A stretch of 64,000 nt of DNA from Parvivirga hydrogeniphila (GTDB lineage: Bacteria; Actinomycetota; Coriobacteriia; Anaerosomatales; Anaerosomataceae): the NCBI RefSeq assembly GCF_023371205.1, contig NZ_JAMCCO010000001.1, forward strand, positions 306,662 to 370,661, given 5' to 3'. The stretch's first letter is position 1; the number at the start of each line of letters is the position of its first letter. The notes beneath the pieces are model-generated. The model searched no databases and was not told the origin of the DNA. It saw only the letters and a program-made list of their open reading frames with translations. The position numbers and the translations under genes are program-made. Shown here piece by piece: positions 49,398-52,897 of the stretch.

Positions 49398-51215
49398 GTG
49401 GGCGAGGAGAGCACAGCAGGACGGACAGGGCAACGCGCGGAGGCGCGCGGCCCGCTCATCTTCCATGAGAAGTCGTCGTGCACCGAGTGCTGGGGGTGCG
49501 TCAGAGTCTGTCCGGTGAAGGCGATCCGTGTCCTCGATGGGCGTTCGGAGGTCATCCAGGAGAAGTGCATCGCCTGCGGGCTGTGCGTCGGCGAGTGCGG
49601 CGCTAAGGCGCACCAGGTCCGTGACGACACGCCTGGCGTGTGGGAGCTCCTGCGCTCCCGCAGAACGGTGGTCGCGCTGCTCGCATCCGAGTTCATCGCA
49701 GCGCTGCATCCGATGACGCCGCTTGCGGTAGAGCGCGCGCTCGCTGGCCTCGGATTCGCCTCGGTCGAGACGACCGCGCTCGGCGAGGAGATCGTCGCTC
49801 TCGAGTACGAGCGCGCGGCCGCACGCGAGGCGTCGCTGTTCACCATCCGGTCGACGTGTCCTGTGGTCGTCGACTTCGTCCGCAAGTACCATCCGGCCCT
49901 GGCTCCTGCGCTTGCCCCGATCGTGCCGCCGTACGTCGCGCAGGCGAGGCTCATCAGGTCGATGTACGGCACAGACGTGGCGATCGTGTACGTGGGCCCC
50001 TGCTACGCTCGCAAGGACGAGGCATTCGATCCGGAGCTTGGCGGACCGGTGGATGCGGCGATCGACTTCTTGGAGCTCAAGGAGATGATCGCGTCCAAGG
50101 AGCGCACGGGCGGCCACCGGGCGGTCCACGCGAACGCGCCTGCGCGGCCGAGGATCCTCAAGCAGGTCTCGCTCACCGACGGGTTCCCCCGCGAGGTGCT
50201 CGCGAGCCGCTCGCCTACCGACGGGCTGGTCCACGTGGTCCGCGGGATCCCCGACCTGGATCGGTTGCTGAAGGCCATCGAGGCCGGCGAGACGGCGCCT
50301 GCGGTGATCGACGCGCTCAACTGCGAGGGCTGCATCGATGGCCCGGCGGTCAATCCGGGCATGTCGTTGTACGCGAAACGCAACGTGGACCGGGCGTCGC
50401 GTTCCGCCGCGGGCATCGCGGCGGTGAGCACGCGCACGATCGTCGAGGTGCTTCCGAGCATCGATCTTGTGCGGTCGTTCCGTCCGGCTCCGGTGCGCGT
50501 GCCGCGACCGAGCGAGGAGGTCATCGACGCGCTCCTTGCGGAGGGCGGCTTCTTGTCGAGGGCCGAGGTCCTTGACTGTGGGGCGTGCGGACACTCGACG
50601 TGCGTCGAGCACGCCGAGGCGATCTTCCGGGGCGAATCCACCTGGGAGATGTGCTTCCCGCTCCAGCGACGCCGCTTGCAGGAGGCGAGCACCGCGCTGC
50701 AAGCGCTCGTCACGATCGACGAGCTCACGGGGGTCTGGAACGGCCGGGCCTTGGACGAACGGCTCGAGCTGGAACTGGCGCGCTTCGCGCGCTATGGGAC
50801 CCCGCTCTCGCTCGTCGTGCTCGACGTCGACGGCTTCGGAGCCGTGAACGACCTCGTGGGAGAGGCGGGAGCGGACGACGTGCTCAAGCGCATCGCAGAA
50901 GCGCTCGCTTCCAGCGTTCGCACCACGGACATGGTGGCCCGCGTCGGCGGCGATCAGTTCGCGGTCCTGCTGCCGGGCGTTGGGAAGACCGCGGCGTTCG
51001 CGGTGGCCGAGAAGCTGCGATCGCTCGTGCGCGAGCTCAGCATCCAGGTCGGCGGCGGGTATACAGGTGATGTGCGGGTCACGCTCTCTGCGGGAGTCGC
51101 TTCGGCGCATACGGGCACGCTCGAAGGCGACGACCTTGTCGAAGCGGCGGAATCGGCGCTCGCCGAGGCCGCCAGACAGGGCCCCGATCAGGTCAGGATA
51201 GCGGCGTCAGGATAG
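49398..51215 (+). CDS. Ferredoxin/[FeFe]-hydrogenase-like/FeS/GGDEF fusion sensor
   Basis: A 605-residue soluble fusion. Two [4Fe-4S] motifs (C28, C31, C34, C38 and C57, C60, C63, C67), then a hydrogenase large-subunit-like domain carrying the H-cluster Cys in all three signature positions: STCP (Cys154), GPCYARKDE (Cys202) and LNCEGC (Cys309, Cys312). Next is a CxxCGxxxC...C FeS motif (Cys394, 397, 402, 419), then a GGDEF domain (about 440-600) whose active-site reads GGDQF (517-521), with an intact RxxD inhibitory site (508-511). It lacks catalytic-type L1/L3 extras and is probably a sensory hydrogenase. The cyclase may be inactive because the fourth residue is Gln. No HydEFG maturases are in the window. 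Confidence 0.85.
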   Translation: MGEESTAGRTGQRAEARGPLIFHEKSSCTECWGCVRVCPVKAIRVLDGRSEVIQEKCIACGLCVGECGAKAHQVRDDTPGVWELLRSRRTVVALLASEFIAALHPMTPLAVERALAGLGFASVETTALGEEIVALEYERAAAREASLFTIRSTCPVVVDFVRKYHPALAPALAPIVPPYVAQARLIRSMYGTDVAIVYVGPCYARKDEAFDPELGGPVDAAIDFLELKEMIASKERTGGHRAVHANAPARPRILKQVSLTDGFPREVLASRSPTDGLVHVVRGIPDLDRLLKAIEAGETAPAVIDALNCEGCIDGPAVNPGMSLYAKRNVDRASRSAAGIAAVSTRTIVEVLPSIDLVRSFRPAPVRVPRPSEEVIDALLAEGGFLSRAEVLDCGACGHSTCVEHAEAIFRGESTWEMCFPLQRRRLQEASTALQALVTIDELTGVWNGRALDERLELELARFARYGTPLSLVVLDVDGFGAVNDLVGEAGADDVLKRIAEALASSVRTTDMVARVGGDQFAVLLPGVGKTAAFAVAEKLRSLVRELSIQVGGGYTGDVRVTLSAGVASAHTGTLEGDDLVEAAESALAEAARQGPDQVRIAASG

Positions 51216-51224
51216 GAGGGCTGC

Positions 51225-52235
51225 ATGCGGCAGGCCGACCTCTGGGAGAGCATCGAGGGCGGCGCTGTGCACTGCCTGCTCTGTCCGCACTCGTGTCGCA
51301 TCCCTGAGGGCTCGTCCGGTATCTGCGGCGCGCGCCGCAACGTCGGCGGGCGGCTTTTCGCAGCGACGTACGGCGAGGTCTCGTCGCTCGCCGTCGACCC
51401 GATCGAGAAGAAGCCGGTGTTCCACTACAGGCCGGGGACCCGAGCGCTCTCGCTCGGCAGCGTCGGGTGCAGCATGCGCTGTCTGCACTGCCAGAACTGG
51501 AGCATCAGCAGGGCGCGCCTTGAAGACGGCGGGGTGCGACGCCTTACGCCCGAGGAGGTCGTGACCATCGCGCGAGCCGAATCGTGCGAAGGGGTGGCTT
51601 TCACGTACAACGAGCCGGTCATCTGGGCGGAGTTCGTGAAGGACACCGCCGTACTGGCGCGCGAAGCCGGGCTGTACACCGTCATGGTGACCAATGGGTA
51701 CGTCACCGAGGCCGGGCTCGACTACCTCGGCCCCGTGATCGACGTCTGGCGCGTGGACGTCAAAGCGTTCGACGACGCGACCTATCGGCGGCTGTGCAAG
51801 GTTCGCTCGATGCAGCCGGTGCTCGATGCCGCCGTGAGGGCCAAGGAGCGGTGGGGGATGCACGTGGAAGCAGTCACCAACGTCATCCCTTCGATCAACG
51901 ACTCCGACGCGACGGCCCGCGGCATCGCTCGTTGGATACATGACGCGCTCGGCCCGAAGACGCCGTGGCACGTGACGAGGTTCTTCCCATACCTGGAGCT
52001 CTCGCACCTTCCCCCGACGCCCCTCGAGACGCTGCGACGTTTCCGCGAGATCGGCCTCGAAGAAGGGCTCGCGTTCGTGTACCTCGGGAACGTGGCCGAG
52101 CCTGGTGGCGAGGACACCGTGTGTCCACGCTGCGGTACTATCGCCATCGCGCGGGACGGCTACCGCATCGTGCAGCACCGGACGCGCGACGGCGCGTGCG
52201 CATCGTGCGGTGAGCCGCTCGGCCTGGTCGAGTGA
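51225..52235 (+). CDS. AmmeMemoRadiSam-type radical SAM enzyme (AmrS-like)
   Basis: A 336-residue radical SAM protein. The N-terminal zinc/Cys part (CLLCPHSCRIPEGSSGICGARR) is typical of AmrS, followed by the radical SAM motif CSMRCLHCQNW (C-x3-C-x2-C) and the VAFTYNEPVIWAEF block. A C-terminal zinc ribbon CPRCG...CASCG ends it. AmrS usually lies near Memo and AMMECR1, which are not in this window. It sits 9 bp after the hydrogenase-like fusion and 14 bp before the UGA-containing DsbA-like gene. Function of the family is unknown. Confidence 0.88.
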   Translation: MRQADLWESIEGGAVHCLLCPHSCRIPEGSSGICGARRNVGGRLFAATYGEVSSLAVDPIEKKPVFHYRPGTRALSLGSVGCSMRCLHCQNWSISRARLEDGGVRRLTPEEVVTIARAESCEGVAFTYNEPVIWAEFVKDTAVLAREAGLYTVMVTNGYVTEAGLDYLGPVIDVWRVDVKAFDDATYRRLCKVRSMQPVLDAAVRAKERWGMHVEAVTNVIPSINDSDATARGIARWIHDALGPKTPWHVTRFFPYLELSHLPPTPLETLRRFREIGLEEGLAFVYLGNVAEPGGEDTVCPRCGTIAIARDGYRIVQHRTRDGACASCGEPLGLVE

Positions 52236-52249
52236 AAAGGAGGATCGCC

Positions 52250-52897
52250 GTGGAGGTAGCGTCCGAACAGGTCGTACCCCGCATCCTCGTCTTCTACGAC
52301 TACGCTTGACCGTTCTGCTTCGTGGACCAGTTCCGGTTCCTCGCGCTTCGTGACGAGATGCACGTCGATCTCATGGGCGTTCCGTTCGAGCTCAGGCCCG
52401 ACATGCCAAACGAGGGGTTGTCCGCCTCGCGGGACGGTCTGTCGCACTCCCCGCGCGTGGAGAAGCGGCTCATCGAGCTTGCCGCGAAAGAGGGCGAGCG
52501 GATGGTGCTTCCCGACCTGGTGCCCAAGACCCACAACGCGATGGTGCTTGCGGAGCTAGGCCGCGACCGTGGCGAGGACGTCTTCTGGCCGCTTCACCTG
52601 GACATCTTCCGCGAGTACTTCGTCGCGGGCCGCGACATCGGAAACCGCGCCGTGCTCATTCCTGTCGGTCTTCGGCACGGGATACCGGAGTCTGAGATGG
52701 TCGAGGCCTGGGACTCAGGCCGCTACGACGAGCGTCTGCACGAGTTCCGGCACCTTGCGCTGCACCTCGGCATCAAAGAGACGCCGTCGGCGCTCATCTG
52801 CAACGAGCTGCTCATCGGGTCTCGGCCGTACGAGATCCTGCGCGCGGCCGTGCAACGCTGCCTCGTGCGGCCTTCGACCATCGACCACGCGGAGTAG
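52250..52897 (+). CDS. DsbA-like thioredoxin with in-frame UGA (probable selenoprotein)
   Basis: A 215-codon frame for a DsbA/FrnE-type oxidoreductase. AAAGGAGG precedes GTG 52250. Codon 20 (52307-52309) is TGA exactly at the first Cys of the CxxC motif: VFYDYA-U20-PFC23. The rest is intact to 52897, with KETPSALICNELLIGSRP (DsbA/FrnE block). Without recoding the gene makes only 19 residues and a downstream GTG (52322) would lose the active site. A hairpin can be drawn after TGA (GACCG/CGGTT and CTG/CAG around a 10-nt loop). No tRNA-Sec or SelB is in the window. Alternative: a nonsense mutation. Confidence 0.72.

Follow-up and report, generated by a model that had tools for sequence, protein, structure and literature searches.

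A probable selenoprotein gene of the DsbA/FrnE type, with a candidate SECIS hairpin, in Parvivirga hydrogeniphila

Why does a gene for a DsbA-like oxidoreductase carry a stop codon in the place of its first active-site cysteine? We have addressed this question for a gene in a stretch of 64,000 nucleotides from Parvivirga hydrogeniphila (the window), using the remainder of its genome (1.84 Mb, estimated completeness 99.99%) and related genes from the same order and beyond. A first-pass annotation had proposed a probable selenoprotein, a proposal that our analysis supports and corrects solely in the placement of the SECIS hairpin. We consider it very probable that this is a selenoprotein gene in which selenocysteine (Sec) is inserted at UGA 52307 by way of a hairpin at 52324-52340, and that its product is a DsbA/FrnE-like oxidoreductase.

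Reading frame, gene neighborhood and codon 20

The features that define the 5' part of the locus are as follows.

51225..52235, + strand: upstream neighbor AmrS, the radical SAM enzyme of the AmmeMemoRadiSam system (TIGR04337, 318.5 bits)
52236..52243, + strand: Shine-Dalgarno region, AAAGGAGG (sequence and spacing to GTG 52250)
52250..52897, + strand: probable selenoprotein gene, DsbA/FrnE-like thioredoxin-fold oxidoreductase with Sec20 (translation, PF01323, orthologues, AlphaFold2, Foldseek)
52307..52309, + strand: putative UGA codon for Sec20, in the place of the first Cys of C-P-F-C (translation, codon counts in the order)
52316..52318, + strand: codon of Cys23, the presumed resolving Cys of U-P-F-C (translation; invariant in alignment A1 of the order)

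The start at GTG 52250 had been credited with a strong ribosome-binding site, and the Shine-Dalgarno sequence indeed lies 6 nt 5' of it. Translation from this codon gives VEVASEQVVPRILVFYDYA-*-PFCFVDQ..., and the one internal in-frame stop, TGA 52307-52309, is followed by 195 sense codons up to TAG 52895-52897, just as the first reading of the frame had it. The gene is complete and encodes 215 residues if UGA is read as Sec. With UGA read through, the product matches the Pfam family DSBA (PF01323) nearly end to end (residues 12-201, 60.4 bits, E 2.6e-16, cut-off 25.6), bearing out the earlier description of a full-length domain, and no other DSBA-family match was found in its genome. The cysteine of homologues replaces the UGA residue exactly, which confirms the assignment of UGA to the first active-site Cys of CPFC. 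A regular-expression scan of the window for further frames of the UxxC, CxxU or CU type returned a long list, typical of chance at high GC, in which the frame at 52307 was the only one judged by eye to resemble a known redox motif.

Matches to the gene are present in 36 of 61 genomes, its own included, as 34 near full-length genes and 2 fragments. Within the order, 33 relatives have orthologues in conserved gene order, the nearest named relative being Coriobacteriaceae bacterium EMTCatB1 (85% identity) and the remainder mainly Coriobacteriia and Anaerosomatales MAGs. The gene lies directly 3' of AmrS in the 27 loci of the order with longer flanks (L045-L071), 14 nt separating the two genes in the window, and a glycosyltransferase-like gene is next downstream in every one of these loci whose 3' flank is covered. 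These constant neighbors indicate that we are dealing with orthologues in place rather than scattered paralogues. The gene went undetected in the other 25 of the 61 relatives (G004, G005, G006, G011, G013 and other genomes of the same family), most of which have selA. Further upstream, homologues of a 605-aa fusion (49398-51215, + strand) precede AmrS throughout the order; in the fusion, a GGDEF diguanylate cyclase (120 bits) is joined to domains resembling ferredoxin and [FeFe]-hydrogenase (TIGR04105, at 126 bits below its cut-off), and the protein may sense hydrogen or redox state and produce c-di-GMP.

Two search routes together yielded 38 distinct sequences of the order that cover codon 20. 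This codon is TGA in 21 of them and TGC or TGT in the other 17, so that the alignment of homologues proposed earlier does find Cys in the place of Sec; TAA and TAG are absent from all matches within the order, codon 20 included. The UGA-bearing sequences span many genera, families and independent assemblies, and since all the sequences share kinship these counts do not represent independent events. The occurrence of TGA at the identical codon in 20 further distinct sequences means that the in-frame stop is not there by chance. The part of the gene 3' of UGA has a dS of 1.23 and a dN of 0.088 relative to the EMTCatB1 genome, which points to a selected coding sequence, and on this comparison the segment is under purifying selection. 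Absent Sec machinery, TGC or TGT on resequencing, and drift of UGA to other stops had been named as findings that would tell against a selenoprotein; none of the three was encountered, and codon 20 reads TGA again in independent genomes and assemblies. Outside the order, a distant DsbA-like match from the phylum search (G076) contains a TAA, and other DsbA-like genes of Actinobacteriota have UGA at the equivalent site, in a U-P-[YWF]-C motif (L078, L080-L082, L084, L087-L090, L092, L093 and L095).

Selenocysteine machinery and the meaning of UGA

The window itself is without Sec machinery, as had been remarked, and the relevant genes are clustered on the same contig about 64 kb past its end (C1:434766-441124). 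A search of the genome for selA, selB, selD and tRNA-Sec(UCA) finds all four: selA in one copy (613 bits), one selB (379 bits) and one selD (372 bits) above their cut-offs, and tRNA-Sec, its anticodon TCA (74.9 bits; also by ARAGORN). The selD gene has an in-frame TGA of its own in the motif TKSG-U-AAK, which we take to be the usual Sec site of SelD. It is thus itself a selenoprotein gene (L013 1501-2418, equivalent to C1:434766-435683), and the 45 nt past its UGA fold very stably, at -23.9 kcal/mol. Three carriers of the UGA gene (G012, G045 and G053) have no full selA or selB in their draft assemblies. In G012, selD is complete and contains the in-frame TGA, and part of selB lies where a contig breaks off, so the absence is likely due to missing contigs; G053 has short fragments, and for it and G045 assembly gaps are a likely but unproven cause.

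With these components, SelA would make Sec-tRNA(UCA) from selenophosphate supplied by SelD, and SelB carrying this tRNA would bind the hairpin at 52324-52340 and bring selenocysteine to UGA 52307. The comparative evidence strongly suggests that Sec is actually inserted at codon 20.

Other meanings of the UGA have to be weighed against this one. A lone stop in an otherwise open frame, at a codon where homologues with Cys have TGC or TGT, could have arisen by a recent nonsense mutation or by misreading of TGC/TGT, the gene then being a pseudogene or the stop a sequencing error. Set against this, the codon is TGA in 21 distinct sequences, which come from independent assemblies and from many genera and families, the sequence past it is under purifying selection, and a hairpin (described below) is linked to the UGA genes; the comparative data already refute this explanation, and we give it next to no credence. 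UGA might instead be a true stop, with a shorter protein of 191 residues starting at GTG 52322. That ORF is listed mechanically and would probably be picked by automatic annotation; standard annotation would cut the gene short. Such a protein would, however, be without beta-strand 1 and the entire UxxC active site, both of which are conserved; moreover, the part ahead of UGA is conserved and has a strong ribosome-binding site 5' of it, and codon 20 shows no drift to TAA or TAG in the order. We regard the shorter protein as very improbable. Finally, read-through is needed both in this gene and in selD, as it would be if UGA had been reassigned genome-wide, for example to Trp or Gly. Yet the neighboring AmrS gene stops at UGA, and does so where its family profile ends, which implies that the genome still uses UGA as a stop; the homologue residue at the site is Cys and never Trp or Gly, and the Sec machinery is complete. 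Reassignment can therefore be given hardly any weight, and Sec insertion is the reading we retain.

The candidate SECIS hairpin

Comparison of the UGA genes brings out one hairpin downstream of codon 20.

52324..52340, + strand: probable bacterial SECIS hairpin (RNAalifold, third-position entropies, pair counts, UGA versus Cys genes)

The pairs predicted by RNAalifold, numbered from the U of UGA as 1, are 18-34, 19-33, 20-32, 21-30 and 22-29, with U31 bulged and a loop at 23-28. In the window this corresponds to a stem of 5 bp between GGACC (52324-52328) and GG-u-UCC (52335-52340), with U52337 bulged, which closes the 6-nt loop AGUUCC (52329-52334). Published limits for bacterial SECIS elements (bSECIS) are a loop of 3-9 nt with a G among its first two positions, a spacing of 16-37 nt and an energy of -7.5 kcal/mol or lower (PMC13188914), and we further asked for an upper stem of 4 bp or more. 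The geometry of the hairpin falls within these bounds (loop of 6 nt with G second, spacing of 19 nt, 5 bp with one bulge); the bare hairpin is weak, folding at -4.7 kcal/mol, and a 42-nt stretch folds at -8.3 kcal/mol. For the window alone, neither folding of the single sequence nor synonymous recoding around the hairpin gave a significant result (P 0.11 to 0.43), with 11% of synonymous recodings scoring as well as the hairpin (P 0.11), and the case for this hairpin therefore rests on comparison.

At codons +6 to +9, the third position does not vary among the 21 UGA genes, whereas it does among the Cys genes. The full stem together with a G24-U25 loop is found in 20 of the 21 UGA genes and in none of the 17 Cys genes; the Fisher value for this difference, 6e-10, is exaggerated in that it treats related sequences as independent. 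Pair 18-34 has undergone a two-sided change, being G18-C34 in the genus of the window and C18-G34 in others. Pair 20-32 does the same once 12 distant Sec DsbA-like genes of other Actinobacteriota are included (A-U 17, G-C 8), and the covariation score of this combined set was reached by 0 of 500 shuffles. Most of the distant Sec DsbA-like genes also have the potential for a strong hairpin at the equivalent position, its loop containing GG or GU. These comparisons make the hairpin at 52324-52340 the probable bacterial SECIS of the gene.

The signal had first been drawn elsewhere, as a hairpin pairing 52308-52312 with 52334-52338 and 52315-52317 with 52328-52330. This structure can indeed be drawn, with an energy in the window similar to that of the other (-5.3 versus -4.7 kcal/mol), and its inner pairs are compatible with 21 of 21 UGA sequences, so Sec might be inserted under its direction. 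It does not stand up as a SECIS: its 10-nt loop has no early G and its spacing is about 8 nt, both outside the published bSECIS limits, there is no two-sided change among the 21 UGA sequences, and pair 6-28 is broken in 11 of them. The strong hairpin that most distant genes can form is, moreover, at the position of 52324-52340. We judge it improbable that the hairpin first drawn is the signal, and favor the one at 52324-52340.

Immediately 5' of the UGA, codon 19 (52304-52306) is GCT in 16 of 21 UGA genes versus 2 of 17 Cys genes, GCT being the rarest Ala codon among the window genes counted. This bias is possibly a 5' context effect on UGA read-through.

The exchange between Sec and Cys has left its own record. 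When the active-site residue is masked before the protein tree is built, the Sec/Cys label requires 7 changes (bootstrap 6-8), and branches with strong support force at least 2 of these. selA persists in most genomes with the Cys form, and since it is nearly universal in the order no link between the Cys form and loss of the Sec machinery was shown. Two Cys orthologues (L036 and L071) retain the SECIS loop GACCAGTTCAGGTTC with the outer pair broken and the full stem gone; these loops are likely to be relics of a recent change from Sec to Cys. A gene fixed in place, with Sec or Cys at position 20 and selA mostly kept, constitutes a clean natural series that is useful for asking when Sec repays its cost.

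Fold, second cysteine pair and relation to known systems

An AlphaFold2 model computed from the window protein and 25 relatives, with U read as C, has a pLDDT of 89.5 and a pTM of 0.87. The predicted layout, with a strand at 11-16, a helix from 21 and a helical block at 68-172, is that of a thioredoxin fold with a helical insertion and a CxxC-type site where the first helix begins. T178-P179 is invariant in alignment A1 and presumably forms the cis-Pro loop. The best PDB matches in Foldseek are Deinococcus FrnE (TMq 0.78-0.81) and Streptomyces coelicolor SCO1869 (0.80); a match to the designed repeat protein 6xr1 is spurious and reflects repeated helices. No signal peptide is evident in the gene product, which makes a cytosolic site probable, and we take the protein to work there, probably as a thiol/disulfide oxidoreductase. 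In the active site, Sec20-Pro-Phe-Cys23, Sec20 would be the nucleophile and Cys23 the resolving residue, a catalytic direction that we infer. Two further cysteines are conserved.

52799..52801, + strand: codon of Cys184, just past the presumed cis-Pro loop, TPSALIC (alignments)
52859..52861, + strand: codon of Cys204, at the end of the last long helix (alignments, AlphaFold2)

Both are invariant in the order (alignment A1) and missing from 10 Sec DsbA-like proteins of other Actinobacteriota, and we found no description of the pair in the literature searched.

The best natural protein by sequence profile (59.8 bits), and the best PDB fold match (TMq 0.81), is Deinococcus radiodurans FrnE (DR_0659; PDB 5cnw, 5co3, 5cp1, 5xwh). 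FrnE is predicted to be a cytoplasmic oxidoreductase of the DsbA family, with a CP(W/F)C site and a functionally important second Cys pair; its disruption renders D. radiodurans sensitive to cadmium and diamide, and regeneration of the active site has been proposed as the role of its C-terminal Cys pair (PMC8945050). By analogy, Cys184 and Cys204 may help to regenerate the Sec20-Cys23 site, in a role like that of the second FrnE pair. A more specific version, in which a Sec20-Cys23 selenenylsulfide is regenerated by a lineage-specific Cys184/Cys204 relay in a FrnE-like selenoenzyme partnering the amrS product, we consider unlikely. The window protein and FrnE share about 22% identity, and the active site of FrnE uses Cys. 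Many members of the FrnE subfamily combine CXXC with a C-terminal CXXXXC; the second pair of FrnE is a CX4C at 239-244, whereas the window protein has its UxxC, no C-terminal CX4C, and C184 and C204 spaced 20 residues apart. We have therefore not filed the gene product as FrnE, although it may act like FrnE.

SCO1869 (PDB 3gl5) has a DsbA-like fold of like type (TMq 0.80), a Cys active site and 23% identity to the window protein. The NF041057 family (Rcas_1661 thioredoxin-like (seleno)lipoprotein) shows weak C-terminal similarity and was rejected, its 24 bits being far below the 190-bit cut-off; its members are lipoproteins, in contrast to the window protein with no evident signal peptide.

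The titles and abstracts searched, with incomplete coverage, contained no relevant paper on selenoproteins of Coriobacteriia or Anaerosomatales, and the gene provides this little-studied order of Coriobacteriia with a securely supported selenoprotein whose probable SECIS is located. DsbA-like selenoproteins as such are well established: 4 sequences were listed in 2006 (PMC1794560) and 45 in 41 organisms in 2016 (PMC5029168), they occur in marine metagenomes as 'DsbA 1' (PMC2398784), and a 2026 review includes 'DsbA-like protein form 1' (PMC13188914). The present gene is a further member of this already listed family (PF01323, UxxC). It shares with the known members the PF01323 domain, Sec as the first residue of UxxC, Cys homologues and a bSECIS just 3' of UGA; to these the Coriobacteriia clade described here, Anaerosomatales MAGs included, adds the invariant cysteine pair C184/C204.
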